This document shows positions 9,573 through 62,966 of a DNA stretch of 64,000 nt, piece by piece (position 1 is the first letter of the stretch; every line of letters begins with the position of its first letter). The DNA is taken from the NCBI GenBank assembly GCA_019637395.1, contig JAHBVR010000002.1, positions 443,495 through 507,494 on the forward strand, in the 5' to 3' direction. The notes beneath the pieces are model-generated. The model was not told the origin of the DNA. It made no database searches and saw nothing but the letters and a program-made list of their open reading frames with translations. Source of the DNA: Vulcanimicrobiota bacterium. GTDB lineage: Bacteria > Vulcanimicrobiota > Xenobia > Xenobiales > JADMJV01. Both the position numbers and the translations under genes were made by a program.

Positions 9573-9586
9573 TCCGCCGCAGGCGG

Positions 9587-11905: not shown

Positions 11906-11986
11906 GGCTACTCCTTCCAGGGGTGAAGGAAGTATACTACTTCTCCTGGGTTTTACAGGTGCACTTGGCAGGAAGTAAACCGGAAG

Positions 11987-12259
11987 TTAGCCGCGAAAAC
12001 GGATGGTCCGGCGGCGAGACAGGCGAAGATAGAGAGGAGTCAAGATTCCGCAGATAAGGGCCGGCAAGAAGCATTGGCGGTAGATGGAACGCATGGAGTT
12101 TCCTCTCAGTTCAGCCGTGCGCGCGTTGATCATGTAGCCGAAGATGGCCGATTTATCGGTTTCACTGGCGTGTCGAACCGAAGGATCCGGAGTGGGGCTG
12201 GGGGTCGGTTGGGCCGAGACGGAGAGGCTGAGCAGGAACGCCAGCAAAAGAAATCTCAT
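11987..12259 (-). CDS. Small exported/membrane protein, 90 residues
   Basis: It starts with a Sec signal peptide (MRFLLLAFLLSLSVSA, cleavage probably after SAQ or SA), then a Pro/Thr-rich stretch and a second hydrophobic helix (FLPALICGILTPLYL, about 63-78) ending in a basic tail. No family is recognised. The ATG overlaps the stop of the TPR gene by ATGA, which places it last in the ABC transporter operon, so an envelope role with that transporter is inferred. Confidence 0.65.
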   Translation of the reverse strand: MRFLLLAFLLSLSVSAQPTPSPTPDPSVRHASETDKSAIFGYMINARTAELRGNSMRSIYRQCFLPALICGILTPLYLRLSRRRTIRFRG

Positions 12260-14590: not shown

Positions 14591-14599
14591 ATAAACTCC

Positions 14600-14618
14600 T
14601 TTGATAATGAGCAATCAA
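14600..14618. promoter_or_regulatory. AT-rich dyad, candidate metalloregulator operator
   Basis: TTTGATAATGAGCAATCAA stands just upstream of the ABC ATPase gene. Similar GATA/TATC dyads are found at 14691-14710, 16562-16583 and 21072-21134. The pattern recalls Fur- or DtxR-family boxes, but no regulator of these families is encoded in the window. Confidence 0.4.
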
Positions 14619-14690
14619 CATCCTTTATCTATACCCAGTCAGATAGAAGTACGGACTGTCTGCGTTGCAAATTTGCAGGACTTGTGATAA

Positions 14691-14710
14691 ACGATTATCG
14701 AATATCAAAT
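14691..14710. promoter_or_regulatory. AT-rich dyad, candidate operator before the TM-TPR gene
   Basis: ACGATTATCGAATATCAAAT ends one base before the GTG start codon at 14712. The half-sites TTTGATATT and GATAATC (minus strand) resemble those of the site at 16562. Its position at the start suggests overlap with a promoter. Confidence 0.4.
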
Positions 14711-14711
14711 A

Positions 14712-41886: not shown

Positions 41887-41922
41887 AAACTACAAATTAC
41901 GGGAACCCGGGACATCCCCTCC

Positions 41923-42324
41923 TTAGGGCGGGCTCCCGTTGCGAACCTGGATCGCCTTCCAACGTTCGAATTGCTCGGTCGTCAAGATTTCCTGAATTTT
42001 GCGGGCCGTGCTGACGTCCAGCATTTTGGCCTCGACTTCGTTGGCGGCGATTTCCTCGAACTTGGCTCGAATCTGTGGCAGCGGAGCCCGCGCCCGCAGC
42101 AGAGTGTTGACGCCCTTCTGCAGGCTGGCGTTGCGTTCCTGACAGGCAACCAGCTGGCGGCGCAGCTCGTCCAGGGCCCGGGTGATCCGCCCGCGCTGTT
42201 CCTTAGACAGGTTCAGTTCCTTGCTGAAACTCATCACCGTCTGGACCTTGCGCGGTGGATCGCAACGGCCCGGCCCGCTCAAGCAGAGCAGGCAGGCCGC
42301 CAGGCAGAGGAGGCGGCCAGACAC
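41923..42324 (-). CDS. Spy/CpxP-like periplasmic helical protein
   Basis: The 133-residue protein starts at a GTG and has a signal peptide (LLCLAACLLCLSGPGRC). The mature part is all-helical with LNLSKEQRGRITRALDELRRQL and ILTTEQFERWKAIQ, the paired L-T/S-x-x-Q helices of the Spy/CpxP/CnrX group. Such proteins act as periplasmic chaperones or stress sensors. It is placed between the TpsA and metacaspase genes, with 3 and 36 bases between them, which suggests a chaperone task for the exported adhesin. A Cys at the signal peptide end is not a clear lipobox. Confidence 0.72.
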   Translation of the reverse strand: MSGRLLCLAACLLCLSGPGRCDPPRKVQTVMSFSKELNLSKEQRGRITRALDELRRQLVACQERNASLQKGVNTLLRARAPLPQIRAKFEEIAANEVEAKMLDVSTARKIQEILTTEQFERWKAIQVRNGSPP

Positions 42325-42327
42325 GGA

Positions 42328-46416: not shown

Positions 46417-46425
46417 GTCTCTCTC

Positions 46426-48051: not shown

Positions 48052-48183
48052 CACCCTACCTACCACTTCAACCTCAGGTTGTCGTCCAGGGTGCTCTATG
48101 GAAGTCCATCCCCGGAGTTGGCCCGGACTTTTGCCACCGAGGCCACAAATCCCCCATTGAGCTAAAAAACTAGGATCGTTGTA

Positions 48184-48990
48184 CTAGTCAGTAAGTTCTA
48201 CTTCCACCAGCGAAACGTCGTCAGACTTGGGGTTGCGGGCTAAATCAGCGATGGCGCGGCCCAAACTCTGATTGTCCGGCAATTGGGCCAGCCCATCGAG
48301 AATTTCCAGGCCGTCCGAGTAGACGGCCAGCCGACTCAAACGCCCCTGGGGAGAGTCCAGACTGGAGACGAATAAACCCGGGCTGCCCAGAATGCCGCGG
48401 CCGCTCGACCAGCGGTCCTCGGTGCGAAAGCCTTCCAGTTTCCATTCCTGGCCCGCCCACCAGCTACGGCAACGCACGTCCCCCAACCAGGACAGCACCA
48501 GCTGGCCATGAGGGTGGCCGGGAGCGGGACGCCAGATGCGTCCGCAGGCATACATACTCTCGGACCCAATCAAACGCTTTTGCTCCAGCACCTGGCGCAG
48601 CATTTCGGGTAGTTCGGCGGGCAAAGGCTGGTCGCGGACGTCCTCGCTGACCTCGGCGCAAAGTTCGCGCAAGCGCGTTTCCAGGCTGGCGCGCACTACC
48701 TCCACCTCGGCGCCGGGTTCGAGTTCGCTCAGCCATTGCACCAGCCCATCGGCCAGGGCGGCGGCGGCAATGTCGCCGAAAAAGGACTGGCTGACGCCGT
48801 CGGTGACGCAAAAAGAGAAACCCTCCGGCGCCGGCGCCAGGACCACGCAATCCTGGCCCATTTCGTTGTTGGCCCTGGTCTCGGCGGCGCGAGCGAAAGC
48901 GTAGCGCCAGCGTAGTCCCGCGGACTCTTCCCAAACCGGAGCCGTCTCGCGGTCCTGGGGCAAACGCCGGGCGCGAAACGGCGAATCCAC
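48184..48990 (-). CDS. PP2C-family Ser/Thr protein phosphatase
   Basis: The 268-residue protein carries the PP2C metal-site motifs: NEMGQDCVV (D47), FCVTDGVSQSFFG (D64-G65), LSWLGDVRC, AVYSDGLE and NPKSDDVSLVEVEL (final Asp pair). It should remove phosphate from Ser/Thr targets of the kinases encoded at 59-63 kb. It starts at a GTG only one base after the vWA gene ends. The pair vWA plus PP2C beside kinases is the TerY-P triad arrangement known from phosphorylation-based stress systems; here it lies next to the EssC-like gene. Confidence 0.85.
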   Translation of the reverse strand: MDSPFRARRLPQDRETAPVWEESAGLRWRYAFARAAETRANNEMGQDCVVLAPAPEGFSFCVTDGVSQSFFGDIAAAALADGLVQWLSELEPGAEVEVVRASLETRLRELCAEVSEDVRDQPLPAELPEMLRQVLEQKRLIGSESMYACGRIWRPAPGHPHGQLVLSWLGDVRCRSWWAGQEWKLEGFRTEDRWSSGRGILGSPGLFVSSLDSPQGRLSRLAVYSDGLEILDGLAQLPDNQSLGRAIADLARNPKSDDVSLVEVELTD

Positions 48991-48991
48991 G

Positions 48992-49741
48992 CTAATGCAC
49001 GGGGGTGGCGGCTGACATTTGGAAGCCCATCGCCACGAATTCGGGATTGTGGCCGGGCAGCACCATCAGGGAGCCCGAAGCCATCTGGTAGTTGGCCTCT
49101 TTCATCATGCGGGCGTAGCTATCGGGAAGGGGGCTGGACATACGGCACAGTTTGCGCGCGTATTCGCTGGCCAGGCCGGTGCTGGGGGTGACACCGCCCC
49201 AGCGGAACGGGTCGCTGATGGGGTCAGCTAGAAACTCATCGGTGATGAAAATGTTTTCGACCAGCACGTTGCCGTCGGCCACGGAAATCTGCTTGAGGCG
49301 TTGAGCTACCGGCTCCGGGTCTTCACCGGTGAATTCCCCGTCAGTCATGTGGCACACCACCGGGGCGGGGGAATTGCGCAAGGCCGGCAGTTCGGCCAGC
49401 AGCAGGCGCTCAGCCGCTTCAAAGGCTTTGGCGGTGCGCGAGCTACGCAGCGTGGAAAGTTCGGGTACGCCTAAATGGGCGACCCGATCCACTGATTTGA
49501 TGCCGTCCAGCAGGTCGTAGACGTGGTCTGAGTAGGCGTACATGGCAACTCGGTAGCGGGGAGAAATGCGCACGCCTTTGGTGGAGCGGAAGACCATCTG
49601 GCGCAAAGCCGCTCCCAAGGCGGACATCACCACGTCGATGCGGCGTTGCTCGCCCATGGGCAGCATCATGGAAGCGCTCACGTCAATGAGGTAGACGATC
49701 AGAGCGGGGGTGGAGGTGGTTGCCAGTAGTTCGTATGCCAT
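48992..49741 (-). CDS. von Willebrand factor A (TerY-like) protein
   Basis: From the ATG at 49741 the protein has 249 residues and begins MAYELLATTSTPALIVYLID, with the MIDAS motif D20-V-S22-A-S24. The other metal-site elements are visible in RSSRTAKAFEAAERLL (Thr) and VCHMTDGEFTGEDPEP (Asp). The size and N-terminal start of the domain match TerY proteins, which pair with PP2C phosphatases and kinases. A longer frame reaches 49957 but overlaps the end of the EssC-like gene. It probably regulates or scaffolds the adjacent apparatus in the cytoplasm. Confidence 0.85.
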   Translation of the reverse strand: MAYELLATTSTPALIVYLIDVSASMMLPMGEQRRIDVVMSALGAALRQMVFRSTKGVRISPRYRVAMYAYSDHVYDLLDGIKSVDRVAHLGVPELSTLRSSRTAKAFEAAERLLLAELPALRNSPAPVVCHMTDGEFTGEDPEPVAQRLKQISVADGNVLVENIFITDEFLADPISDPFRWGGVTPSTGLASEYARKLCRMSSPLPDSYARMMKEANYQMASGSLMVLPGHNPEFVAMGFQMSAATPVH

Positions 49742-49889
49742 GTGGGCGCTGTGTTCCCGGCCTCCAGCATTCCCTCCTTTCCGCGGCCAATTGCCAGTAA
49801 TCCGCTCCCGAGCGCGACCTGTCGTCCATCCGGCCCGCGCCATGACAAGCCGTGACAAAATTCGGCTCAGGCCCGCCTCGGAAACCAAT

Positions 49890-52800
49890 CTAGAGCAATT
49901 TGACCCGCGCGATCTCGGTCCCAGCGGGCACTTTTCTCTCGGCAGGCACGTCCTCAACCGGTTCGGGCTGGAATTGCGCCAGTCGGTCCAGCCATACCAG
50001 CAATCCCTTGGCCTCCGCTCCGGGACGGGCGATGCGTACCTTGTTGCGGGCTGCTCCGCGTTGCACGAAAATGCCCATTCCCCGCGTCAGTTCTTCTGAC
50101 TGCGGGGGAATGCGCACATTGTTGAAGACGCCGTTGTCGTCGCGGGTGGCCAGCAGGAAGCCCGACTTGTAGGAGGCGATGGCCTTATAAATGCCGTCGT
50201 AGGTGTTGGAGCCCATATCGTCGACGCTGCCGGCCAGCACCACGTGCATCCCCGGTCCGCGGCAGGCTTTGATCAGATTGATGAGATCTTCCTGGTTGAG
50301 CGCGCTGCTTTGGGAGCGTAAGGATTCGAAGTCATCGATGAACAGCATGATGGTCGGCTGCTGGGCCACCCATTCGGCCTCATCCAGCACGCCACCCGAT
50401 TGCATGCGGGCGGCTTTGACCGCTGCTTTTCTCTGGTCGGCCAGGTTCCGCAGGCGCTCCAGAGCCTCACCGAAGGTGTCTTCGTTGTCGACGAACTGGC
50501 GCACATGGGGGAGCCGCGCCAGTGGCTGCAGCAGCCCTTCGCGAAAATCCACCACCGTCAGGTCCAGGTTCTCGGGCGACATGCGGGACGCCAGGGAAAG
50601 CGCCCATACCACCAGCAGGTTGGTCTTGCCACTTTGCATCGAGCCGGTGAAGAAGAAGTGCGGGCCGTCGGCGGGGGCCAGGTTGAAGGGCACCACGTCG
50701 TCGATGTCCAGTCCGATGGGCGCGCCCGTAAAAGGTCCGACTTGATCCTGGGTGATGGCCGGGATGAGCAGGTCGAGCGTGACCTGATCGGGCACGATCG
50801 GCACCGGTGGGGGAGGCGGCCCTTTATAGGCGGCGCGCATGGCTTCGGTGAGTGTGTCCATGGCCGCCGCTCGTTCCATCTCGCTGGCGCCGCTAAAGGC
50901 CAGCGCACCCTGGAATTCCAGCGGCGGCTTGGCTTTGACCAGGCCGCGGCCGACGATCGGACCGGGCTCCATTCCCTCGGTGCGTCCTACCGCCACCGTG
51001 TATTCGGTGCGGTCGGCCAGTTGCAGCGAAAGCACGCTGTTGATGTTGCCGCCCACCTTGGGTTTGAGTCCGCTGGGGCCGTTGGCCGACAGGATCAGAT
51101 AGACGCCCAGGTTGCCGCCTTCCTGAACCAGGGTGGCCAGCAGGTCTTCGGCCTCGGCGTGGTCCTTGGAGAAACGCACATAGTTGTCGAGCACGACCAC
51201 CACCGCGGGCACATCGGTTCGACCCGATTCGCGGTAGGATGCCAGGGTGCTGGCGCCGGCTGCGGCCAGGATATCCTTGCGTTTCTGAATCTGGCGCAGT
51301 AAGAAACGCAACAGGCGTTGGGTCCGGTCGATTTCTTCGGCCACCACGATGTCGCCCACGTGAGGCAGGGCGCGCAGCCGGGTCAGCGCCTTACCCCCGA
51401 AGTCCATGATGTAAAAGTGAAGCTGCTCGGGGCTATGTTGTTTGGCCAGCGAGATGAGCATGGTCAAAATTAAAGAAGTAGTGCCCGCGCCGGGCCGGCC
51501 GAAAACGGCGATATGTCCATCCTTGGCCAGGTCCATGAGCAGCGGGCCCTGGAAACTGCGCCCCGGATCATCCAGCAAGCCGGCCCGGGCCTGCAGCCAG
51601 TCCGAACTCGGCTGCCAACTGCTTCCGTCCCAGCCGCCGGCGGGCTGGATTTCCTCCAGTAGCAAGGTTCTGGGAAGCGGCGCCAACCAGGGGCCGGGCA
51701 GGCGCTGGATGCCGTTCTTTTCGGCTTGCACGGCCAGGTGGTGGGACATCTCCTGGAGTTCGGTGCGGGCTTTCCCTTTCGATTCCGCGGCGGCGGCCGC
51801 CCCTCCACCCATCTGCTGGCGGCGCCCGCTCAACTGCACCATCGAAATGGTGGGCTTTTCCTCGACGACTTCCTGGTTGGCCTGATAATCTGCGCCTCCG
51901 TAGGCCGCCTGGAAGAGTTCGAACATCTCGTTCTCGCCCAACTGAAAATAGGCGCGGCCGGACTGGCGGATGCTGGCGGCCTCGGGCCGCTTGATGACGG
52001 CTTTACTGTCTTCTTCCTTGTTGAACTTAAAGGCGATGCGAAAACGCGTGTTGCTCTCGATCTGGTCGCCGATGATGCCGGCCGGCTGCTGGGTGGCCAG
52101 AATCAGGTGCACGCCCAGGCTGCGTCCGACGCGGGCGATACTGACCAGGCGGCCGATGAATTCTGGTTCCTGTTTGGAAAGCTCGGCGAATTCATCGCAC
52201 ACAATCAGTAGTTTAGGCAAGGGTTCGGGAGCCCGATCCTGGCGGTAAAGCTCCTGATATTCGTCGATCTTGTTCACGGCCAGGCCGCTGCTGGCCGAGG
52301 CCGCGGAAAACAGGCGCATGCGCCGTTCGTTTTCGGCGGTTAGAGCCTTCAGGCAGCGCCAGACCTCGCTCTTTTCCAGATTGGTCAGGGTGCCCACCAG
52401 GTGAGGAAGTTCTTCCAGGCCGCGGAAAAGGTCGCCTCCTTTGTAGTCGATACACACGAAGGCCACTTCGTGGGGATGAAATTGGGTGGCCAGCAGCCCC
52501 AGGAAGGTGCTCAAAAAGGCGGTTTTACCTGAGCCGGTGGTGCCGGCCACCAGGCCGTGCGGACCCTGTCCGGTTTCGTGGAGGTTCAGTTCGAGCTTCT
52601 TGTCGCCGCCCTGCATGCCGATGGGCACTGCCATGCTTCGGAAGGGCGCGTTGTTTTTCCAAACGGAGAGAGCGTCGTAGTCCTCGATTTTGCCCACGCC
52701 TATCAGTTCCAGCATGCCGGCCTTGGTGGGAATGTCGGCCGCGCCTCCGCCCCCCTTGATGCGTAGAGCTGCTAGCGAGCGAGCAAAGTGTTCGGCACGA

Positions 52801-54002
52801 TCCAGCGTTAGCGTGTCAGCCACGAAGGCGCTGTCACTGGAGTCGAGAGTGGACACCAGGCGGCCGCCGTCCGGGCCGGCCTCAGCGATGGTGCGGCAGG
52901 TCTGCGGCAACTGCTGCATGGTTTCGCCAAAGAAAACGGGAAGACAACTGGCCTGAACCGAGTTCTTTTCCAGGAAGTCGTGAATTGGGTGATCGGCCGT
53001 CAGGCTGGTCGAGGCGAACAGAAAAACGTAAATGGGAAACTCGATGCTGCGTTTGTTATCCTCCTGTTCCTTCAGGCGCAGGGTGCGCTTACGCAGCAGG
53101 TCGTGGAGGTCGTCAAGCAGGGCTTGCGATTCCTCTCGCTCACAGGCTAAAAAGCGCCGCTGGTGTTCGTCGCTCCAGACATGGGGAAGCCAGCGACACC
53201 ATTTCCAGTCTTCCTCGGCCGGATAGATGACCACCAGTTTGACCTCGTCGGCTGAATGATGGGTCGCCAGTTGGACGATGAAAGCGCGCGCCATTTCGAC
53301 GAGCTGTTTGCGGGTGCCGGTCATGCCGGCCGGAGCCAGGTCGCGTAACTGGGCGCAAACCGGCAGGCCCTCCACCATTTGGAATTCCGCTGCCAGCCTG
53401 AAGGTGGCGACGGCCAGTGGATCCTGCTGCAGGTGATCGACCGCCGGCGCTTTGAGGTGCATACTGAAGGGCCGCAAGCCCAGCCCCAGGCGCACGCTCA
53501 AGAAATCCGGATCGGAGGGAGTGCGTTCGAAAAGCCGGGGGTCGACGCTGTCGGCGCGGCGGGCGCATTCGGCGGGGCTGGGATCGAGCGCCAGGCTGGA
53601 CTGGAGCTGTTGGTCTCGGGAAACGCCGAGGGCGGCCCGGCGCGACTCCAGGTAGCCGGACTGGCGTTCCACGCGCTGGCCGCAGAGCTTTTTGTATTGT
53701 TTGACTTCGCGGCGATAACCGATCACTCCGCGCAGGACGCCGAAGAAGAACATGCTGGCGCCTCCGATCATGGTGGAAGCGCCGCTGTGCGTGAAAGCCG
53801 CCATAAAAGCGGCTCCGGCAATGCTGGCTCCGCCCGTGAAAACCACGTCTTCCATGCGTGAACTGAGGTTGGCCGAGGGGGGAGTGGGGGGAGCCTCCGG
53901 AGCCCGAATTTCTTCCTCGCCGCGGGGAATGGGGGGTAGGATTCGAGGGGGACGTTGGAAGACTCTCTGGGATGGCATCGGCTGCCCAGTTCGTTTCACC
54001 AT
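49890..54002 (-). CDS. EssC/EccC-type FtsK/SpoIIIE ATPase of a type VII-like secretion system
   Basis: The 1370-residue protein has a Pro-rich start, two membrane spans at about 50-70 and 75-95 (VVFTGGASIAGAAFMAAF and GGASMFFFGVLRGVIGY), a cytoplasmic DUF-like stalk domain (100-450) and three ATPase domains. D1 has Walker A GTTGSGKT (487-494) and Walker B LLIVCDEFAEL. D2 has a degenerate P-loop GRPGAGTTS near 835. D3 has GSMQSGKT near 1120 and LFIDDFESL. Three modules after two spans are the hallmark of the type VII motor. Unlike firmicute EssC it has no N-terminal FHA domains; an FHA domain is in the partner at 59197. The start at 54002 follows AGGGAAGCTTG. Confidence 0.9.
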   Translation of the reverse strand: MVKRTGQPMPSQRVFQRPPRILPPIPRGEEEIRAPEAPPTPPSANLSSRMEDVVFTGGASIAGAAFMAAFTHSGASTMIGGASMFFFGVLRGVIGYRREVKQYKKLCGQRVERQSGYLESRRAALGVSRDQQLQSSLALDPSPAECARRADSVDPRLFERTPSDPDFLSVRLGLGLRPFSMHLKAPAVDHLQQDPLAVATFRLAAEFQMVEGLPVCAQLRDLAPAGMTGTRKQLVEMARAFIVQLATHHSADEVKLVVIYPAEEDWKWCRWLPHVWSDEHQRRFLACEREESQALLDDLHDLLRKRTLRLKEQEDNKRSIEFPIYVFLFASTSLTADHPIHDFLEKNSVQASCLPVFFGETMQQLPQTCRTIAEAGPDGGRLVSTLDSSDSAFVADTLTLDRAEHFARSLAALRIKGGGGAADIPTKAGMLELIGVGKIEDYDALSVWKNNAPFRSMAVPIGMQGGDKKLELNLHETGQGPHGLVAGTTGSGKTAFLSTFLGLLATQFHPHEVAFVCIDYKGGDLFRGLEELPHLVGTLTNLEKSEVWRCLKALTAENERRMRLFSAASASSGLAVNKIDEYQELYRQDRAPEPLPKLLIVCDEFAELSKQEPEFIGRLVSIARVGRSLGVHLILATQQPAGIIGDQIESNTRFRIAFKFNKEEDSKAVIKRPEAASIRQSGRAYFQLGENEMFELFQAAYGGADYQANQEVVEEKPTISMVQLSGRRQQMGGGAAAAAESKGKARTELQEMSHHLAVQAEKNGIQRLPGPWLAPLPRTLLLEEIQPAGGWDGSSWQPSSDWLQARAGLLDDPGRSFQGPLLMDLAKDGHIAVFGRPGAGTTSLILTMLISLAKQHSPEQLHFYIMDFGGKALTRLRALPHVGDIVVAEEIDRTQRLLRFLLRQIQKRKDILAAAGASTLASYRESGRTDVPAVVVVLDNYVRFSKDHAEAEDLLATLVQEGGNLGVYLILSANGPSGLKPKVGGNINSVLSLQLADRTEYTVAVGRTEGMEPGPIVGRGLVKAKPPLEFQGALAFSGASEMERAAAMDTLTEAMRAAYKGPPPPPVPIVPDQVTLDLLIPAITQDQVGPFTGAPIGLDIDDVVPFNLAPADGPHFFFTGSMQSGKTNLLVVWALSLASRMSPENLDLTVVDFREGLLQPLARLPHVRQFVDNEDTFGEALERLRNLADQRKAAVKAARMQSGGVLDEAEWVAQQPTIMLFIDDFESLRSQSSALNQEDLINLIKACRGPGMHVVLAGSVDDMGSNTYDGIYKAIASYKSGFLLATRDDNGVFNNVRIPPQSEELTRGMGIFVQRGAARNKVRIARPGAEAKGLLVWLDRLAQFQPEPVEDVPAERKVPAGTEIARVKLL

Positions 54003-54010
54003 CAAGCTTC

Positions 54011-54028
54011 CCTGCCCTGAGGGGCAGG
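54011..54028. other. Hairpin in the intergenic leader of the divergent secretion arms
   Basis: CCTGCCC-TGAG-GGGCAGG is a perfect 7-bp stem with a 4-base loop. In the essC-like mRNA it stands eight bases before the ATG and overlaps the purine-rich ribosome binding site; in the opposite mRNA it lies before the coiled-coil gene start. It may control translation of one or both arms. Confidence 0.5.
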
Positions 54029-54060
54029 ATTTGGGTGCCAAAACGAACAAAGAGCCACCC

Positions 54061-54960
54061 GTGGACGATGCCGGCGCGCTTGCCAAAGTAGTTCAGACGA
54101 TCGGGCGCCTCCGCGAGGTCTCGATTGCCGCTGGCCAGCAGGGACAGACGGCCGCGGCTCTGACCGAACAGCTCGCCCAGGTGCAGGCGGGGGTACGCGC
54201 CCAGTTGGAGCAATCCACTCAGTCCTTGCAAGCGATCGAGCAATCGGTCGGCGCCCTCCAGCTCGAGGCCGACCAACAGTTTGTGGCCCTGGTCGAGGCG
54301 CTGGAACGAGGAATAGCCGAGGAGCGTCCTTTACGCTCGGTGTTGGCCCAAGTTCGCCAGAATTACTTGGTGCAGTTGCAACGATTAGAACAGATTACTC
54401 AAGAGCAACTTCCCCCTCTGTTGGCCGACATCGGTCAGGCCTCGCAGTCGGTCTCGGCCACTCTGGCCTCGACCCAGATATTGGCGCTGCAATCCGCGGC
54501 CGAGTGCCAGCGCCTGCGGGCCGCTTCCGCCCAGCAGCGTCAGGCTCTGCTGGAGATGCGCGCCCGCCTGGAGCAGCAAGCCGAATCCATCGACCAGCAC
54601 ACCGAGCAATTTACCGACTCGTTGCTGCGTCTCTGGAAAGACCTCGAAGTCAACTTCGAGAACGCCCGCGCGGAGACACGACAGCGCTTTGACTCGCTCC
54701 TGGCCGAGGCCGCCCAGGTTCAGAAGGGCGCGGCCGAGGAGTTTCAACAGTGTTGGAATCAACAGTTAGCGGAGCAAATCGGGTCGCTGGCCGCCGCTTT
54801 GGAAGAGACGCTTTTCGGTCTGCGCGAGCTGGCCAAACCGACGCGCAAACTGGCCGATTCTGAGGTGCTGACCAGCATCCAGAAAGTTCGCGAGAGTTTT
54901 GATCCTTTGCAGGACATCGAGAAAGTTTTCCGGGCCGCCCACGGCCTGGAGTTGTGTTGA
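54061..54960 (+). CDS. Coiled-coil protein of the type VII-like cluster, 299 residues
   Basis: The GTG at 54061 opens a protein that is almost entirely helical: heptad-like patterns with Gln, Leu, Ala and Glu run from residue 10 to 280 (ALTEQLAQVQAGVRAQLEQ, LLEMRARLEQQAESIDQHTEQ). There is one Trp-rich point, LLRLWKDLEVNFENARAE, near 195-212. No WXG motif, signal peptide or membrane span is seen. It may be a substrate, a chaperone or a filament-like part of the apparatus. The reading frame is open upstream to 53752, but that region is antisense to the EssC-like gene; TTG 54031 is an alternative start. Confidence 0.75.
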   Translation: MDDAGALAKVVQTIGRLREVSIAAGQQGQTAAALTEQLAQVQAGVRAQLEQSTQSLQAIEQSVGALQLEADQQFVALVEALERGIAEERPLRSVLAQVRQNYLVQLQRLEQITQEQLPPLLADIGQASQSVSATLASTQILALQSAAECQRLRAASAQQRQALLEMRARLEQQAESIDQHTEQFTDSLLRLWKDLEVNFENARAETRQRFDSLLAEAAQVQKGAAEEFQQCWNQQLAEQIGSLAAALEETLFGLRELAKPTRKLADSEVLTSIQKVRESFDPLQDIEKVFRAAHGLELC

Positions 54961-56933
54961 TGGATTCTCTGATCGATCGACTGGGAGGAGAGTTCGAGCA
55001 GCTCGATGCGCTACTCACTTCCCTGGATGAGGTGGCTGGAAGGCTGGAAGTTCAGTTGTCGGACGGCCGCCTCCGGCTCGAAGGCCTGGCCCAGCGAGTC
55101 GAGGCCAGCAGTGAGCAGGCTCGCCAGGAATGGGCTGAAGCCGCGCCGCGCCTGGGCGCTCAGCTTCCCCCACTGAAAGCCGAAGCCTCGATGCTGTCCC
55201 AGCAAACCTCGGCCTTGCAACGGCAAAGCCGTCAATTTGAAACGGATTTTCTGGCCGAGCTACGGGAAACAGCCAGCGTCGTAGAGAGGTTCAGCCAGCA
55301 GCTGAACGCACCGCTGGAGGAATGGGCGCTCAGTTTAAGGGAGGGCCGTCCGGCGGCCCAGGAATTGCAGGCGGCCGCAACCGCTGGCTTAACGGCCTGG
55401 CAGGCTCAGACTCAGGTTCTGTTGGGCCGTTTGGCCAGTCTCGACAAAGAGCTCGAGTCCCACTCCGCGCCCTTGCAGAACCACGGTCAGTTGTTATGGC
55501 AGTCTTTGGCGCAATGGCAGCGGCAATTGATACTCGACCGAGAGCAGACGGGGCCCGAGGCAGCGCGGCCTGTGCAGCGGATCTTGAGCGACGAACTCCC
55601 GGAAACTTCCGACTCTCTTTGCCAGGGCCAGGGGAAGCTGCTGGAGCAGCAGTTCGAACTCTGGCTGAAAGCCGCCGAAACCCGCCGAACTGCCACCGCG
55701 GACGCCCTCACGGCCCTCTACGCGGGGCTGAACGAATATTGCGCTCTCACCCTGCCGCAATTGCTGGCCGAGTGTCTGCAGCAGAGGGCGGCCCCCGCCG
55801 TCCAGCGCACCCGTGCCGCCATTTTGCGCATTCAAGCCTGGGTGCATCGCTCGGGGGAGTTCACCACCCAATTTGGCCGGTTGATGCCGGCCACCCGGGC
55901 AGTTTTGACCTTCTTCGCGCAGATGCAGGACCCGGCGTCCACCGGCCAGGCGCTGGCTCAAAGTTCGCCCACCAGCGGTTGGGGAAGCGCCCCGCCGGCT
56001 CAGCTCTCCAATCCCGAGCCGGTTCAGCAGGGACGCCGGTCTGAGGTCAGCTGGGCCTTGCCCCCGCAGGTGGGGCTGGGTTTTTCGGCCACTCAGACGC
56101 TCTCCCAGACCAGCGCTCAGACGGCTCCAGCGCTTGTTTCTTCCGATCGGGGGCGCCAGGAGACGGCCGCCGAACGTCAGGCTGGAGCCGGCGGTGGAGC
56201 TTCTCCTCGCACCCTTTCCCCCATCAACCAGGGAGGCCCGCAGGGCACCGACCTTAGCGGCCTCGGAGTTGGACCCGGCGGAGGATTCGACAGCGGCTCC
56301 TCCAGCGGCCTTGACAGCTCGCGCTCCGGTTCCCCGCAGACCATTGGCGGTTTCGAAGACAACAGCCGGGAACTCTACGACAAAATGCAGGGCGGCCAGA
56401 ATACGCCGGAAGAAACGCTGGAGCGGATGCGCCAGGAGACCGCCGCCAAAGCGCAGCGCCTGGAGGCAGAGCGGCAGGCCGCCCGCCTGGCCGGCGAAGC
56501 TCCTCCTATCCAGCAAGCCAGTTCTTCCCATACCAGCCACGGTGGCCATCACGGCACCAGCCACGGAACTCATGGCGGCCCCGGCGCGGGTGCCGGCGGT
56601 GGCGCGAGTTCGGGCTCAGGCGGCGGCCATGACAGCTCGCGCTCCGGTTCCCCGCAGACCATCGGCGGTTTCGAAGACAACAGCCGGGAACTCTACGACA
56701 AAATGCAGGGCGGCCAGAACACGCCGGAAGAAACGCTGGAGCGTATGCGCCAGGAAACTGCCGCCAAAGCGCAACGCCTGGCGGCAGAGCGGCAGGCCGC
56801 CCGGAGCGCCTCTATGCAAGAAGCTCCGCCTAAGATCAACCTTGGTTTCCTTCGGGATGGCCAGGGCCAGGGAGTTCCTCCCAGAATTCACCTGGGCAGC
56901 CCGAAGCGCAAGCCGGAGGAGCCCGAGGTGTGA
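54960..56933 (+). CDS. Coiled-coil protein with disordered tail containing two identical modules, 657 residues
   Basis: The ATG shares one base with the previous stop (TGATG). Residues 1-330 are helical coiled coil similar in style to its neighbours (MDSLIDRLGGEFEQLDALL). Residues 335-440 are Ser/Gln/Pro-rich. The tail has two nearly identical modules of about 58 residues, starting DSSRSGSPQTIGGFEDNSRE and each ending in a helix ERMRQETAAKAQRLxAERQAARSA-like, joined by a Gly/His/Ser linker with TSHGGHHGTSHGTHGG. The modules have FEDNSRELYDKMQGGQNTPEE at the centre. They could be binding sites repeated for valency, for example for an FHA domain after phosphorylation. Confidence 0.8.
   Translation: MDSLIDRLGGEFEQLDALLTSLDEVAGRLEVQLSDGRLRLEGLAQRVEASSEQARQEWAEAAPRLGAQLPPLKAEASMLSQQTSALQRQSRQFETDFLAELRETASVVERFSQQLNAPLEEWALSLREGRPAAQELQAAATAGLTAWQAQTQVLLGRLASLDKELESHSAPLQNHGQLLWQSLAQWQRQLILDREQTGPEAARPVQRILSDELPETSDSLCQGQGKLLEQQFELWLKAAETRRTATADALTALYAGLNEYCALTLPQLLAECLQQRAAPAVQRTRAAILRIQAWVHRSGEFTTQFGRLMPATRAVLTFFAQMQDPASTGQALAQSSPTSGWGSAPPAQLSNPEPVQQGRRSEVSWALPPQVGLGFSATQTLSQTSAQTAPALVSSDRGRQETAAERQAGAGGGASPRTLSPINQGGPQGTDLSGLGVGPGGGFDSGSSSGLDSSRSGSPQTIGGFEDNSRELYDKMQGGQNTPEETLERMRQETAAKAQRLEAERQAARLAGEAPPIQQASSSHTSHGGHHGTSHGTHGGPGAGAGGGASSGSGGGHDSSRSGSPQTIGGFEDNSRELYDKMQGGQNTPEETLERMRQETAAKAQRLAAERQAARSASMQEAPPKINLGFLRDGQGQGVPPRIHLGSPKRKPEEPEV
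56313..56486 (+). repeat. Direct repeat unit 1 within the coiled-coil gene
   Basis: About 174 bases encode the first tail module (SGSPQTIGGFEDNS...). It matches the unit at 56631-56804, offset 318 bases, with only a few base changes, so it is a recent or gene-converted duplication. Confidence 0.85.
56631..56804 (+). repeat. Direct repeat unit 2 within the coiled-coil gene
   Basis: Second copy of the 174-base tail module, separated from copy 1 by a Gly/His/Ser-coding linker. Confidence 0.85.
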
Positions 56934-57898
56934 GCGACCTGCTGGAGCAACTCAATCAACTCCTTGATGCCGGCCGGGAAACTCCGCTGCGACTGCGGAC
57001 CCTGCAGTCGGATTTGCTGCACTTGGAGACCAGCGGGCAAGCCTTGCAAGAAAGCGTTCGGCGTAATCATAGTGAGAATCTGGCTTTGCTCACCGAGGTA
57101 TTGGGAAAAGTCAGCGCCGAGACAACCCGGTTGGAGGAGCTCCGCCACTCCGTCAGCCGGGCTCAGGCGGCGGCCAGCCAGGCCCTGCGCGAGCTGCAGC
57201 AAGCCGGGCAAACCCAGGCAGAGATGATTCTATCGGAGCTGCAACAAGCTCGCGAGCGCGTCCTCCAACTGAGCCAGAGCGGCCATCAGTTCAGCCTGGA
57301 GATTGTCACTCTGAGTACGGCACACACCGCCGCCGTCGGCAGCGCCTGCCAGAGCCTCCAGAATCGCTGGAGTGAACTGGAAAAAAGCCTTGACCAGGTG
57401 GAGGTCCGCCTGCAAAGTCTGGCCCAACTGGAGCAACAGGTCCAGACCCGGCACCAGGCCGGTATGGCACGCTGGCAAGAGGAATTTGGTCTTGCTCGCA
57501 CGGGATTGGCCCGGGGCATGGCGGAATTGCGGGAGCGGGGCGAAGCTTGCGAGCACACGTTTGTGAAGGCCATGGAGGAGATGCCGATCAGCCTGGCGGA
57601 GCAAGCCAGCCGGCTGGAACAGCAACAGGCAGATTCTTTGGATGAAGGCATTTCGCGGCCCTGCCAGGAGGGCGCGGCGGCCTTGACCGAGCGGGCCATT
57701 CTCTTCATGGGACAGCAAAGTGTGAACGTGGAGGACAAGCTTCTTCCTCTCGGGGTGGAAGTCGAAAAACAGGTTAAGCGCTCGCAACAGGGAACGCCGC
57801 TCAAGCCGATGCTTGTAACTACCTATTACTTTCTGCAGAAAATCGGACAAGACTCGATCTTGGCGCCTCATTTGGAGCTGCTTTTCAGCGATGTCTGA
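56930..57898 (+). CDS. Coiled-coil protein of the type VII-like cluster, 322 residues
   Basis: The GTG overlaps the previous stop (GTGA). The protein starts SDLLEQLNQLLDAGRE and is helical throughout, with long heptad segments (residues 40-120 and 140-260) rich in Gln, Leu and Glu. Its C-terminus ends with a hydrophobic helix, MLVTTYYFLQKIGQDS, which the neighbours share only weakly. No known domain is seen. The opening MSDLL-x-QL is repeated at the start of the following protein, so the two are paralogues. Confidence 0.75.
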   Translation: MSDLLEQLNQLLDAGRETPLRLRTLQSDLLHLETSGQALQESVRRNHSENLALLTEVLGKVSAETTRLEELRHSVSRAQAAASQALRELQQAGQTQAEMILSELQQARERVLQLSQSGHQFSLEIVTLSTAHTAAVGSACQSLQNRWSELEKSLDQVEVRLQSLAQLEQQVQTRHQAGMARWQEEFGLARTGLARGMAELRERGEACEHTFVKAMEEMPISLAEQASRLEQQQADSLDEGISRPCQEGAAALTERAILFMGQQSVNVEDKLLPLGVEVEKQVKRSQQGTPLKPMLVTTYYFLQKIGQDSILAPHLELLFSDV

Positions 57899-58811
57899 CC
57901 TGCTCAGCCAGCTCCAGGGCTCCCTGCGGGAGGCTGAACAATGCCGGCAGACTCTGAAGGTCGCGAGCCAACGCGCCCAGCAGGCCCAGGCCGAATGCGA
58001 CCGCGCTACCGCCCAATACGAAGCGGAGCAGCAACGAGTGCACCGGGCGCTGCAAAATTATCGAGAGCGTGTGCAAGTCGGCGGGCAAAGCGCCGGCTCC
58101 GCCGCTCAATCCCTCATCGAGGAGTGTGAGCGAATGGCCCTTTGGGCTCAGGAAGCCCAAAAGGAATTGAGTCAAAGGTCGCAACATTTGCAGCAGCAGC
58201 TCAACCAGGCCTCCGCCCAGATCCATCACTTGCACGGCGACCTGGAAGATAAGCGCCGCCTGGTATCGCTGGAGCTGACCAAGAACATCGCTCTGGTGGA
58301 GCATGAGACCGGACAACTCGAACACGAATTGGCCGCCACCCAGAGCTTCGTCAGCGAGCAAATGCTGCCCGGATTGCAGCGGCGCGAGATGACTCTGGCC
58401 CGGCAGGGTGAAGACCTGCGCGCCCTGCTGCTGCAGCGCCTGCTTCCCAATCTGACCCGGGAATTTGCCGCCACCCAACAACATCTATTGAAACAAGCCG
58501 AGACTCTGGAGCAGGCAGGGCCAGGCACGGCGGAGGATGCGCGTCAGGCGACCCTGGATTCGCTGGCTCAACTGAGTGAAAATTTACAGACTTTGTGTGC
58601 TCGCTCGGCCGGGGCGGCGCGCGCCTCCCTGGACCAGGTGGCAGCCGACATTCCCCCCGTTCGTTCCCGAGTAGACGAGCTCAACAAGCAGACCAGGACC
58701 TTTCAGGAACTGGGGACCCCGGCGGCCGGTCATTTGAAAATGCTGGTGAGTGTGGTGGCTCAGTTACGAGAGCTCTTGATTCAAGCCAAAGTGTTGAGTG
58801 GCCTGGAATGA
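57891..58811 (+). CDS. Coiled-coil protein of the type VII-like cluster, 306 residues
   Basis: The gene overlaps the previous one by 8 bases. The protein starts MSDLLSQLQGSLREAEQC and consists of long helices (YEAEQQRVHRALQNYRERV, QHLQQQLNQASAQIHHLHGDL, and later LREFAATQQHLLKQAETLEQ-like segments) with a C-terminal helix MLVSVVAQLRELLIQAKVL. No membrane span is present. It shares the N-terminal opening and overall design with the 322-residue protein. These helical proteins could be exported through the EssC-like motor, as WXG100/LXG proteins are, but this is inference. Confidence 0.75.
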   Translation: MSDLLSQLQGSLREAEQCRQTLKVASQRAQQAQAECDRATAQYEAEQQRVHRALQNYRERVQVGGQSAGSAAQSLIEECERMALWAQEAQKELSQRSQHLQQQLNQASAQIHHLHGDLEDKRRLVSLELTKNIALVEHETGQLEHELAATQSFVSEQMLPGLQRREMTLARQGEDLRALLLQRLLPNLTREFAATQQHLLKQAETLEQAGPGTAEDARQATLDSLAQLSENLQTLCARSAGAARASLDQVAADIPPVRSRVDELNKQTRTFQELGTPAAGHLKMLVSVVAQLRELLIQAKVLSGLE

Positions 58812-59188
58812 GCCGAACCTGCCTGCTGACACTACGCTCGAACGGACGTGAGTGGGACCTGGAAGTTCCCAGCGAGCTGCCTTCCCAGGAGCTGGTGGGA
58901 TTGCTCCAAGAGGCGCTTGGTCTGCCGAGCTCGGAGCCGGCCGCGCGGCTTTATCTGGCTCCGCTGGGTGTGCCCTTACCTCAAAATCAGAATTTGCAAC
59001 AAGCCGGTGTCCTGGACGGCTCCATCCTGATCCTTTCGGCCACTGCTCCGCAGTCCGATGCATCCGGTCAGGATCTGGTGCGTGACAACCCGGCCACCGC
59101 CTGGAAGCCCCTGGGCTCAGAGACCCCCGCTGAACCGACTCCCCCGGCTGCTCCGGATAAGCCGGGCTACGTTTGGAAGAAGCTTTAG
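58808..59188 (+). CDS. YukD/EsaB-like ubiquitin-fold protein
   Basis: The 126-residue protein begins SRTCLLTLRSNGREWDLEVPSELPSQELVGLL and continues with LYLAPLGVPLPQNQNLQQAGVLDGSILIL, the beta-grasp pattern of YukD/EsaB proteins (residues 3-78). A Pro/Ala-rich tail of about 45 residues ends in GYVWKKL; there is no di-glycine end, so conjugation is unlikely. YukD-type proteins are core members of type VII systems in firmicutes and are fused to EccD in actinobacteria. Position directly before the EssB-like gene is the same as in firmicute yuk/ess loci. The ATG overlaps the previous stop (ATGA). Confidence 0.8.
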   Translation: MSRTCLLTLRSNGREWDLEVPSELPSQELVGLLQEALGLPSSEPAARLYLAPLGVPLPQNQNLQQAGVLDGSILILSATAPQSDASGQDLVRDNPATAWKPLGSETPAEPTPPAAPDKPGYVWKKL

Positions 59189-59196
59189 GAGCCGCC

Positions 59197-61008
59197 TTGT
59201 TTACCCTGAACGCCAATCAAGAACTCATTATCGGGGGGGTTCCCTGGCACGTTGTCCAGCATCCGGGAGCGCAAGGCATGGCCTATGGCCAGGAAGGCCG
59301 GGCCGCCGTAGTCTACCAGCTTTGCCGCGGTTCGCATCGCTTCCAGGGCCCGGTTTCGCTACTCGGTTCGGATGGCCGCGTGCACGAGGTTCCGGCTGAC
59401 GGCAGCAGCCTGACCTTCGGAAGGGCCCCCGGCAATGGCCTGGTTCTCTCGGCCGTGGCCGTCAGTCGCCAGCACGGCGCGCTGGTCGTCAAAGACGGCC
59501 AGTTGATGGTTTGGGACAACAGCGCTCGCAACGGCACTTTCATCGACGGCAGCAAGGTGGAGCCACAGAAATGGGTGCCCGTTCCGGCGGGCAGTCGCCT
59601 GCAGTTGGGTACCGCTGAAGATGGTGAACCGTTGGCGGTTCGACCCGATGCTTCCGCCTGCCGGGCGCTGAAGGTTTTCAAGTCGCGCTTTCGCGTCCCT
59701 CGGCTGGTGGAATTGTCGGCCAAACTGGCCAGCTTCGCCGACATTCCGGGCCTGCAAGTTTGTACGCGCACCGTCTTTACTCCTCAGGATCATCGCACCC
59801 TGCTGGTGTCCCAGCCCGAACTCGTCTACGGCGTCCTCATGCCCTGGATCGAAGGGCGCAGCTGGATGGAAATGATCCTGGAGCGGCAGAGCCTCACTCC
59901 CCAAGAGTCGTTGGCCTGCGCCCGCTCGCTGGTGAAAATTTTGGTGGAGATGGAGCAACGCGGCATTGCCCACTGTGATCTATCTGGTCCTAACGTATCC
60001 TTGGAGCGCATTGAAGATCGGTTGGGCATTCAATTGGTGGATGTCGAACAGATCTACTCCACCACGCTGCCCCGCCCGGAAGAGGTGTTTGCCGGCTCCC
60101 CTGGATACGCCCACCGTCAGCTCGACGCGCTGGCCTGGAGCCCCGTTTCCGATCGCTTCTCCGGAGCTATCCTGATTTGCGAGCTGTTGGCCTGGAGTCA
60201 CGCGGAGATGCGCGACACCGCCTGGAGCGAGAGTTTCTTTGAACCTAACGAAATGCAGACGGAATGCGCCCGAGCCGACAAACTGCGGTATTTCCTGGAA
60301 GGCCAGTGGGGGAGCCAGTTGGCTCGTCTTTTCGAGCGCGCCTGGCGCAGCGACAGCCTGGAGCATTGTCCGACCTTCGGGGAATGGGAGCTGGCTCTAC
60401 CTCAAGAGGCCCCCAAAGGCGAGGCTAAAGCCGTCGTTAATCTGGCGCCCGGCCCGAATCTCGGAGTCCCAACTCCGGTAGGACCCGTACCGGCGGTTTC
60501 CTTGGGCCAGGCCGCTCCCACTCCACCGGCCGCGCCCCCCCGCCCTCCCGCCGAGACGGTGGCCGCTAACGAGGGTAGTGAAGACGGCGCGGCCGCTCTC
60601 ATGGACCGGGCTCGCCAACTGGAGGAGTCCGGCAACTACCAGGGCGCTCTCACCCATTATCAGCTGGCCGCCTCGATGGCCCCGGTCGGCACCGCCCTGG
60701 CCAAAGAGCTGGCCCTGATCGTCAATGAGATGTCCTCACGGGTGAGCGGGGAGGCAGCCGCACCGCCCCCTCCACCGCCGTCGCCCGTTTCTTTGGGCGA
60801 AGCTCCTCCTACCAAGAAGAGCGTCGATCCGGGACTTCTGCAGCGAGTGCGGGCGCTGGAGGGAACTCCCGGCCTGGCTTCCCCCGAGAAGCGATCCCCA
60901 AAGGCTGCGCCCAACAAAGCACAGTGGTTCGGCTATGGACTGATCACCGTGATGATGCTTTTACTGGTGGCTTTTCTGGTTCGCTACCAGCCCTGGAACC
61001 ACCACTAA
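59197..61008 (+). CDS. EssB-like membrane-anchored kinase with an FHA domain inserted in its N-lobe
   Basis: From TTG 59197, six bases after AGGAG, the protein has 603 residues. An FHA domain with LTFGR (72-76), SRQH (90-93) and a downstream N-G motif occupies about 65-145. It precedes the kinase strand ALKVF (K159), so it lies within or before the N-lobe. The kinase C-lobe has HCDLSGPN (259-266, D261 and N266) and LVDVEQ (D282 in place of DFG). A Pro/Ala-rich linker, a TPR-like helix pair (ALMDRARQLEESGNYQGALTH) and one C-terminal span (577-597) follow. EssB/YukC are membrane pseudokinases next to YukD; here the catalytic Asp, Asn and Lys are kept, so it may be active. Confidence 0.8.
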   Translation: MFTLNANQELIIGGVPWHVVQHPGAQGMAYGQEGRAAVVYQLCRGSHRFQGPVSLLGSDGRVHEVPADGSSLTFGRAPGNGLVLSAVAVSRQHGALVVKDGQLMVWDNSARNGTFIDGSKVEPQKWVPVPAGSRLQLGTAEDGEPLAVRPDASACRALKVFKSRFRVPRLVELSAKLASFADIPGLQVCTRTVFTPQDHRTLLVSQPELVYGVLMPWIEGRSWMEMILERQSLTPQESLACARSLVKILVEMEQRGIAHCDLSGPNVSLERIEDRLGIQLVDVEQIYSTTLPRPEEVFAGSPGYAHRQLDALAWSPVSDRFSGAILICELLAWSHAEMRDTAWSESFFEPNEMQTECARADKLRYFLEGQWGSQLARLFERAWRSDSLEHCPTFGEWELALPQEAPKGEAKAVVNLAPGPNLGVPTPVGPVPAVSLGQAAPTPPAAPPRPPAETVAANEGSEDGAAALMDRARQLEESGNYQGALTHYQLAASMAPVGTALAKELALIVNEMSSRVSGEAAAPPPPPPSPVSLGEAPPTKKSVDPGLLQRVRALEGTPGLASPEKRSPKAAPNKAQWFGYGLITVMMLLLVAFLVRYQPWNHH

Positions 61009-62915
61009 CGGTAGATGGAGGGCACCGGAGCGGGGGCTGGAGCGGGCGCCGGTCCTGGAGCGAAGGGGACGGGGTCAGGCTGGACAGGCACCGGGATCGG
61101 TTCCAGAGTCAAGGAAAGTGGCAGCGTTCGTCCGGCGACCACGGTGAAGGATTTTTTGGCGCTGATATAGTCGGTCTTGCTGGCCTTGAAGGAATGCTTG
61201 CCCGGCGTGAGCCCGTTGAGGGCTCCCGGCTTGACCTTCTTGCCGTCCATTTCCACCACGGAGCCTGCCGGACTTACCTTCAAAGTAACGTTGCCTACCG
61301 CCCATTCCATTTGGGCCACCACTTCGTTGACTTGAGTGGCGCTGACCGTGACGGGCAGCGTTTTGGATTTACGATCGGGAGCGCTTACCTTGAGCCGATG
61401 GTCGCCTACGGGGAGCTGGAGCATGCCTGCCTCCACGGTGGCGGGGGAAGTCTGGTCATCCACTACCACTTGGGCGCCCGCCGGCAGTTGCTTGAGTTGG
61501 ATTTTGCCTTCGCTTGGAGGTGGGGGAAGCACCGGAGTCGGGCTGGTGGAGGCCGGGGAACTCTCACCGGGTCTGGGGGTGGGACTGGCGCTCGCCAGCG
61601 CCGGGGTTTGCGGCCGGCCGAAGGCGGCGAACAGGCCCACCAATCCTACCAGCAAACCCGAGCCGATAGCCAACGGAAGTTTGGAAGAGCCACCCGAGGG
61701 CTCTTCCAGCGCAGGGGGAGGAGGCGCTGGCGGTGCGGGCACAGGCCTGGAGGTCGGGCCCGGATGCGCAGCGGTCACGGGGGGAGGAGCGCTGCGCAGG
61801 GTCTCCTCCCCGAAGGGCAGCATCTTCATCGGCGCGCCCGTCTGAGTATCTTCGGTAATCGACTTTAAATCCCAGTTTCGCCCGACCATGGTGGCCGAGT
61901 CCAGATGCTCCACCCCCGACCAATCAGGAGCCTGCGGCGCTTCGCTGAAGACCGGCGGGGGAGGGGGATCCGCCTCCACTGTGACTTCCACTTTGGGTTG
62001 CTCCTGGACTTTCTCGGCGGGGCTGACGGTCGGCTGGATCTCGCTCGCCTTCACCACCGGCGCGGGTGAAGGAGCGGCCTGCATAGCCTCGCGCAGGGCT
62101 GCCCGCATGGCTTTGGCGTTGGGATAGCGATCGTTGGTATCCTTGGCCAGAGCCTTCATGATAACTTGGGAGAGGGCCTCGGGGATGGCAAAGTCGAGAG
62201 AATCGGGGGGAGCCGGCATCTCGAACAGTTGCTTCTTCATAACCTGGGACAGCGATTCGGCGCGGAACGGACTGATGCCGGTAACCATTTCGTAAAGCAT
62301 CACGGCGGTGGCATAGACGTCGGAATTCTCGTAGTGCCGCCCATCCAATTGTTCGGGCGCCATATACTCCGGCGTGCCGAGCGTGGTGCCCGTCTGCGTC
62401 AGTTGATTGGCGGTGGCCAGGTATGAGATGGAGAAGTCCGTCAGGGCGGCGTTGCCGGCATCGGTGACCATTACATTGGCTGGTTTGATATCGCGGTGGA
62501 TGATGCCGTGCGCGTGGGCGTGTTCCAGGCCGTCAAGCAACTGGTCGGTCAGGCGCACCGCTTCGGCGATGGGCACCCGTTTGAGTTCCTGCATGTGGGA
62601 TTTCAGGGTGCGCGACCCCAGATATTCCATGGCGATGAACGGAGTGCCCTCGTGGATGGCGAAATCGTAAATCTGCACGATGTAAGGATGGCGCAGTTTG
62701 GCGGCGATCTGTCCCTCGCGCTTGAAGCGCTCGACGAATTCCTGATTGTGCGCGTAGTCCTTGGACATCACCTTGATGGCCAGTTTTCGTCCCAAGTTTT
62801 CGTGGAGGCCTAAGTAGACGACGCCCATGGCGCCCTGGCCAAGCTCCTCGAGGACTTTGAAGCCACAAACGTTATCCGGCGCGGACTGCATTGCTGTCGA
62901 AGTTCTACACGACAT
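61005..62915 (-). CDS. Membrane Ser/Thr protein kinase with two PEGA domains
   Basis: The 636-residue protein has a complete kinase domain (17-280): GQGAMGVVYL, K48, E67, HRDIKPAN with D142 and N147, and D160-F-S in place of DFG, then GTPEYMAPEQ. A Pro-rich linker, one membrane span (about 445-465, SKLPLAIGSGLLVGLVGLFAAFG), and two PEGA-type beta domains (about 495-620: QLPAGAQVVVDD, SPAGSVVEMDGKKV) follow. It resembles PknB-type kinases with extracytoplasmic sensor domains. Its stop overlaps that of the EssB-like gene on the other strand. I start at the ATG at 62915, after AGGG. Confidence 0.88.
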   Translation of the reverse strand: MSCRTSTAMQSAPDNVCGFKVLEELGQGAMGVVYLGLHENLGRKLAIKVMSKDYAHNQEFVERFKREGQIAAKLRHPYIVQIYDFAIHEGTPFIAMEYLGSRTLKSHMQELKRVPIAEAVRLTDQLLDGLEHAHAHGIIHRDIKPANVMVTDAGNAALTDFSISYLATANQLTQTGTTLGTPEYMAPEQLDGRHYENSDVYATAVMLYEMVTGISPFRAESLSQVMKKQLFEMPAPPDSLDFAIPEALSQVIMKALAKDTNDRYPNAKAMRAALREAMQAAPSPAPVVKASEIQPTVSPAEKVQEQPKVEVTVEADPPPPPVFSEAPQAPDWSGVEHLDSATMVGRNWDLKSITEDTQTGAPMKMLPFGEETLRSAPPPVTAAHPGPTSRPVPAPPAPPPPALEEPSGGSSKLPLAIGSGLLVGLVGLFAAFGRPQTPALASASPTPRPGESSPASTSPTPVLPPPPSEGKIQLKQLPAGAQVVVDDQTSPATVEAGMLQLPVGDHRLKVSAPDRKSKTLPVTVSATQVNEVVAQMEWAVGNVTLKVSPAGSVVEMDGKKVKPGALNGLTPGKHSFKASKTDYISAKKSFTVVAGRTLPLSLTLEPIPVPVQPDPVPFAPGPAPAPAPAPVPSIYR

Positions 62916-62966
62916 CTGGCAACCCTGCGCTAGGGGAAACAGCCCGTGCCCCTCGAAAGAGCCTGA

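Follow-up and report, generated by a model that had tools for sequence, protein, structure and literature searches.

A type VII-derived gene cluster with a coiled-coil quartet and no detected WXG100 gene in a diderm bacterium of Candidatus Eremiobacterota

Introduction

Type VII secretion systems (T7SSs) have two components in common, the ATPase EccC/EssC and the WXG100 proteins, which are regarded as an inseparable pair in all systems of this kind (PMC11217815). The types T7SSa to T7SSj are known only from Bacillota and Actinomycetota, and WXG100 proteins occur in all of them except T7SSi, for which this is unclear (PMC11217815). T7SSb has FHA domains on EssC that contact EssB, and T7SSc contains a kinase, a von Willebrand factor A (vWA) protein and a phosphatase (PMC11217815). 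Some Gram-negative species carry WXG100 genes together with FtsK-type genes, unconfirmed as secretion systems (PMC10765036). A ubiquitin-like component, called YukD, EsaB or TsxB, is nearly universal in T7SSs. EsxA-type proteins are thought to be necessary for the exit of other substrates. Here, we describe a type VII-like gene cluster at positions 48184-61008 of a 64,000-nucleotide stretch of contig JAHBVR010000002.1 (assembly GCA_019637395.1, positions 443,495 to 507,494; the window) from Candidatus (Ca.) Eremiobacterota. The cluster encodes an EssC-type ATPase, a YukD-like protein, a membrane-anchored kinase-fold protein and four consecutive long coiled-coil proteins (CC1 to CC4, the quartet), as a first-pass annotation made from the sequence alone had seen. 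Two further products, a vWA protein and a PP2C-like phosphatase, had been left unnamed in that annotation.

The genome that holds the window (G000) comprises 7.66 Mb in 36 contigs and is 97.9% complete but not closed. EssC was surveyed in 149 genomes of the phylum. The relatives used most below are a separately assembled sister genome (G002, 82% complete), G003 and G004, which all belong to the same genus as G000, and G016 from the same class.

Results

Judged from sequence, the parts list of the cluster resembles T7SSc more than T7SSb. Shared with T7SSc are an EssC without FHA domains, a ubiquitin-like protein, a membrane kinase with conserved catalytic residues and a cytoplasmic vWA protein (TscE); a counterpart of the PPM phosphatase (TscF) is suggested by a match below its cut-off. 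The cluster differs from T7SSc by having neither a WXG100 protein (TscA) nor an identified EspG-like TscG, by the addition of four coiled-coil proteins, by an FHA domain nested in the kinase and by its occurrence in a diderm phylum, whereas T7SSc has been described in Bacillota. This is a likeness of parts lists, in which the kinase is likened to TscD by description. With T7SSb the cluster shares an EssC that scores over the equivalog cut-off and a separate YukD/EsaB, but it has no WXG100 protein and no EssB match, and its FHA domain is on the kinase rather than on EssC.

The loci in G003, G004 and G016 are similar to the G000 cluster in their EssC clade, vWA protein and YukD, in the PP2C-like and kinase-TPR-transmembrane proteins where contigs allow and, for G003, in the quartet; they differ in the presence of WXG100 and of a partner protein of 220-270 residues, and the G003 and G004 kinases differ in domain composition. 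The Gram-negative loci with WXG100 and FtsK-type genes (Sutcliffe 2011 and Unnikrishnan 2017) likewise are putative type VII components of outer-membrane bacteria and, as they are cited in PMC10765036, were reported through their WXG100 genes, of which the G000 cluster has none. The first-pass annotation had taken EssC, YukD and EssB as the defining set of firmicute type VII systems, which is wrong in that the shared pair is EccC/EssC and WXG100 (PMC11217815). The G000 cluster has the EssC/EccC ATPase and a YukD-like protein but lacks WXG100, and for this reason we consider it a type VII-derived variant rather than a strict member. No paper in the literature searched joins type VII secretion with Eremiobacterota. 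Diderms with putative type VII loci are already on record; the loss of WXG100 in combination with a quartet appears to be new.

The ATPase matched TIGR03928 (T7_EssCb_Firm) with 1076.8 bits (cut-off 778.4) over residues 14-1324, as compared to 88 bits for the FtsK model, and among solved structures YukB (E 2e-115) and EccC ranked on top, with FtsK at about 68 bits. The Walker A motifs of module 1 (GTTGSGKT) and module 3 (GSMQSGKT) are intact, while that of module 2 (GRPGAGTT) is degenerate and has lost its lysine; a profile search gave no FHA match in the protein. EssC was present in 5 of the 149 genomes (G000, G002, G003, G004 and G016), and the five proteins formed one clade with 99/99 support, apart from three T7SSb-type and four Actinomycetota sequences, in a tree that also placed the G000 protein apart from FtsK. 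A wider collection scanned with EssC returned the G002 locus, on a Ca. Eremiobacterota metagenome-assembled genome contig whose gene content equals that of G002 contig C347, as its sole match (90% identity). An FtsK, HerA or conjugation ATPase, the alternative raised by the first-pass annotation, was rejected since the protein groups with EssC/EccC, as that annotation had proposed, with scores far above those for FtsK/HerA.

No WXG100-sized gene had been seen in the window, and this was borne out genome-wide: the 7.66 Mb of G000 contained none at E<=0.001 (best match E 0.08), and none was found in G002. WXG100 proteins over the Pfam cut-off are encoded in the EssC-bearing genomes G003 (one), G004 (two) and G016 (one), and one of the G004 genes (71.7 bits) is located immediately before essC. 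The family of 220-270 residue partner proteins is encoded near WXG100 or essC in the same three genomes and is absent from G000 and G002, such that WXG100 and the partner are jointly missing from the two genomes in which the kinase contains an FHA domain. A search for an EspG identity of the partner gave no match in Pfam, NCBIfam or PDB; the family is possibly EspG-like. A gene in G004 (L020, 18357-19565) encodes a fusion of WXG100 with a C39-like peptidase, plausibly a type VII effector, and a gene in G003 (L018, 9526-10647) encodes a helical-LysM-C39-like protein, which is a candidate type VII effector of a diderm.

The coiled-coil proteins (54061-58811, plus strand) have no family match, no signal and no transmembrane segment. 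Four consecutive helical genes adjoin essC in G000, in G002 (on two contigs) and in G003, where they code for proteins of 297-325 residues and are located between essC and WXG100. A second array, not linked to essC, was identified in G000:C11 and G002:C79 and consists of at least 8 tandem helical genes that end in a gene for a TPR protein. Genes 1-4 of this array are colinear with CC1-CC4; the same-order pairing was the best of 24 by both global and local scoring, with z values of 7.5 for CC1 against array gene 1 and 4.6 for CC3. The same order was also the best of 24 by global score in comparisons of the G003 set with both other quartets, although this colinearity is only suggestive, given that genes of equal length tend to raise a global score. 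The arrays, L077 (G000:C11:104001-120000) at 3033-13474 and L085 (G002:C79) at 1-13131, encode helical proteins of about 300-445 residues, a small Cys-containing protein and the TPR protein, and orthologs in the two arrays share a mere 26-37% identity. No quartet arrays were found in the candidate regions sampled in G001, G005 and G006; because the search sampled these genomes, we do not claim that every such array is accompanied by EssC.

An AlphaFold2 model of CC3 consists mainly of two helices of about 100 residues (2-116 and 122-216) joined by a short turn, at a predicted local distance difference test (pLDDT) score of about 70-87. In a comparison of G000 with G002, the helices of CC3 diverge but its last ~85 residues are nearly invariant. 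The Ser/Gly/His-rich tail of CC2 contains a repeat of about 45 residues (GGFEDNSRELYDKMQGGQNTPEETLE...), which occurs twice in G000 and four or more times in G002 and was not found in six other genomes searched.

On the plus strand, CC1, CC2, CC3 and CC4 are followed by YukD and the kinase-fold gene, with overlapping gene ends suggestive of an operon, and on the minus strand EssC is followed by the vWA and PP2C-like genes and then by TpsB and TpsA. The genes that the first-pass annotation had listed were found at the positions it gave. In G002, one contig contains EssC divergent from CC1 and CC2 and another contains CC3, CC4, YukD and the kinase. For G000 and G002, at synonymous divergences (dS) of 1.0-1.6, the ratio of nonsynonymous to synonymous substitutions (dN/dS) was 0.05 for EssC, 0.055 for the kinase and 0.09 for YukD, as compared to 0.13-0.18 for CC1, CC3 and CC4 (CC1 0.17) and 0.28 for the N-terminal part of CC2, whose G002 copy is frame-shifted and lies on two contigs. 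The machine genes are thus under strong purifying selection and the coiled coils evolve faster. A chance assembly of the cluster is excluded because G002 has retained the arrangement at dN/dS values of 0.05-0.28.

The kinase-fold protein had been annotated as EssB-like. The EssB/YukC families gave no match at E<=0.1 and a two-sequence EssB profile found nothing, so that this identity is rejected on sequence. It instead resembles TscD of T7SSc in having a kinase fold whose catalytic residues are intact (PMC11217815). In an alignment of the kinase and TPR parts, K167, D269 (of HCD), N274 and D290 are invariant in five homologs, indicating that it is probably an active kinase and not a pseudokinase of the EssB type. 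In both G000 and G002, the FHA domain is inserted after the glycine-rich loop GQEGRAA and before the lysine strand ALKVFK; the homologs of G003 and G004 are without the insert and carry PEGA repeats beyond the transmembrane segment. The AlphaFold2 model of the kinase was poor (pLDDT 53); the top Foldseek matches were nonetheless to the FHA kinases Rad53 and Chk2.

The vWA protein, which has no transmembrane segment, matched PF13519 (VWA_2) below its cut-off and a TerY model of PADLOC (E values in Table 1). With 57-64% identity, it is more strongly conserved between loci than the other parts, and among 11 genomes searched full-length homologs were confined to the five with EssC, with none in G001, G005, G006, G010, G015 or G017; a search of plasmids and viral contigs gave no match. 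The PP2C-like protein matched PF13672 at 17.4 bits (E 0.0034), under the cut-off of 24 but spanning most of the model, and a homolog with 34% identity adjoins the G003 type VII locus.

The YukD-like protein was recovered as annotated, with 38.3 bits against PF08817 (cut-off 27) and a match to the ubiquitin-like part of the EccD model (E 2e-6). A YukD gene is not by itself a diagnostic feature, because YukD-like proteins in G015, G016 and G017 also adjoin other genes on contigs with no EssC, and another occurs in G020. The latter (G020:C62, L029) adjoins genes that by eye are E1-like, JAB-like, RING-like and E2-like and may belong to a ubiquitin-like pathway of bacteria. In G017:C143 (L027, 8387-10646) and G016:C517 (L026), which contain no EssC, the YukD-like gene is convergent with a putative N-acetylmuramoyl-L-alanine amidase gene.

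The host is a diderm bacterium, as had been annotated from the outer-membrane barrels in the window: G000 encodes an Omp85/BamA-like protein of 833 residues with a full-length match as well as TpsB, and one cultured member of the Eremiobacterota has an outer membrane containing lipopolysaccharide (PMC9758169). The Pfam model for LptD had no match in G000 and four relatives. The TpsB barrel next to the cluster was confirmed; outside G002 its closest relative is a G004 copy (66% identity; next best 48%) about 17 kb from essC. A caspase-domain (C14) gene adjoins TpsA/TpsB both in the window (39790-48066) and in G004 (L022, 2250-9999). The TpsB and C14 genes neighbour each other at several sites, including in G001, which is without EssC, and the pairing looks like a recurrent cassette. 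A role of TpsA/TpsB as dedicated outer-membrane parts of the machine is unsupported, as TpsB lies near caspase genes with or without EssC, and the linkage of caspases to the type VII locus is explained by their 6-10 copies per genome. At a distance of about 20-30 kb from the type VII locus of G004, L032 (G004:C141:14000-30500) encodes at 4623-15494 a ClpB/ClpV-type AAA+ protein, a 1149-residue protein without family and a 914-residue protein that has a long helical tail and gave weak tape-measure matches; these genes may be a contractile injection cluster. The Ser/Thr kinase convergent with the cluster in the window is a possible regulator of it.

Table 1. Positions in the window of the cluster genes and their neighbours.
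Feature	Position	Strand	Remarks
PP2C-like (PPM) phosphatase, TscF-like	48184-48990	-	PF13672, sub-cut-off; homolog in G003
vWA protein, TerY/TscE-like	48992-49741	-	PF13519 E 9e-5; PADLOC TerY E 6e-24
EssC/EccC-type ATPase, 1370 aa, without FHA	49890-54002	-	TIGR03928
CC1, coiled-coil, quartet position a	54061-54960	+	start inferred: GTG at 54061, 58 bp from essC start
CC2, coiled-coil, quartet position b	54954-56933	+	Ser/Gly/His-rich tail with repeats
CC3, coiled-coil, quartet position c	56930-57898	+	AlphaFold2: two long helices; C-terminal ~85 aa nearly invariant
CC4, coiled-coil, quartet position d	57891-58811	+	colinear with gene 4 of second array
YukD/EsaB-like ubiquitin-fold protein (TsxB)	58808-59188	+	PF08817
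Kinase-fold membrane-anchored protein, TscD-like	59173-61008	+	FHA, weak Pkinase match, TPR, one C-terminal transmembrane segment
FHA domain within kinase-fold gene	59386-59622	+	PF00498 44.4 bits
Ser/Thr kinase, transmembrane segment and PEGA repeats, convergent neighbour	61005-62918 (start approximate)	-	PF00069 174.5 bits, PF08308 23 bits
TpsB (ShlB-type barrel), neighbour	46426-48066	-	PF03865 117 bits, PF08479 57 bits
TpsA exoprotein, neighbour	42328-46416	-	PF05860 114 bits; own Sec-type N-terminus

Discussion

Our preferred reading, to which we assign slightly better than even odds (about 0.55), is that the cluster encodes a type VII-derived, T7SSc-type inner-membrane exporter of a diderm bacterium whose quartet has assumed the role of WXG100. 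EssC would be the membrane ATPase, and its partners would be YukD, the membrane-anchored kinase, the vWA protein and the PP2C-like phosphatase. Switching of the machine probably falls to the kinase and the phosphatase, and the FHA domain, lying within the kinase, may act as a sensor of phosphorylation in cis. The quartet, whose members are long helical proteins without leaders and stand in a fixed order, would replace the lost WXG100 and its 220-270 residue partner: made beside EssC, it would be recognised by EssC, carried across the inner membrane and act on the outer side, in the form of exported helices or of an assembly that spans the envelope. A fuller version, a WXG100-independent diderm type VII machine in which EssC exports the quartet in place of WXG100 dimers, the kinase has a phospho-reader within its catalytic lobe, the quartet is exported or spans the envelope and further arrays elsewhere in the genome feed the machine, is put forward more tentatively, at somewhat less than an even chance. 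The type VII relationship, the YukD-like protein and the diderm host of the first-pass interpretation stood, while EssB and the defining set did not, and its suggestion that the coiled coils serve as substrates or as an envelope part becomes more specific through the second quartet copy and through those relatives in which WXG100 is retained.

Several observations weigh against a quartet in the WXG100 role. The quartet proteins of the window matched neither WXG100 nor LXG models, the fold search with the CC3 model returned only generic coiled coils (best E 6e-3), the same-order pairing for the G003 set ranked only third and fourth by local score, and the second quartet array is unlinked to essC, such that quartet proteins may act without EssC. 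An unexported quartet, forming a cytoplasmic or membrane-side scaffold of four coiled-coil subunits that works with the EssC machine on other cargo proteins, would fit the generic fold as well as the position of the second quartet away from essC, in an array with more helical proteins and a TPR protein. We nevertheless consider this unlikely, since the quartet abuts essC in three genomes and evolves faster than the machine, and the G000 cluster contains no other substrate-like gene. Less likely still is that a WXG100 gene was missed, being too divergent or located in an assembly gap, and that coiled coils accompany an ordinary T7SSc-like system here as they do in G003, which has both quartet and WXG100. 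G000 is not closed at 97.9% completeness and WXG100 proteins diverge quickly, the G003 copy scoring 37 bits; however, the model that found the copies of all three relatives gave a best match of only E 0.08 in G000, the separately assembled though 82% complete G002 likewise contained none, and the partner family is missing from both genomes too.

The match of the vWA protein to TerY and those of EssC to defence-associated FtsK-like models (e.g. mad8, E 1e-50) would be expected if the vWA protein, the PP2C-like protein and the kinase formed a TerY-P-like signalling triad, with the EssC-like ATPase and the coiled coils belonging to an intracellular stress or defence device that has no function in secretion. 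This appears improbable given that EssC aligns end-to-end with secretion EssC at 1077 bits, against 171 for mad8, that the relatives carry WXG100 proteins, one of them fused to a peptidase, and that T7SSc has the same classes of kinase, vWA protein and phosphatase (PMC11217815).

The locus is of interest as a conserved and selected EssC locus without WXG100, with relatives in the same genus that have kept WXG100, which makes the role of WXG100 and its replacement testable. The cluster and its relatives provide a comparison set for type VII machines in cells with an outer membrane, and the G000 cluster could show whether a type VII machine works without WXG100.

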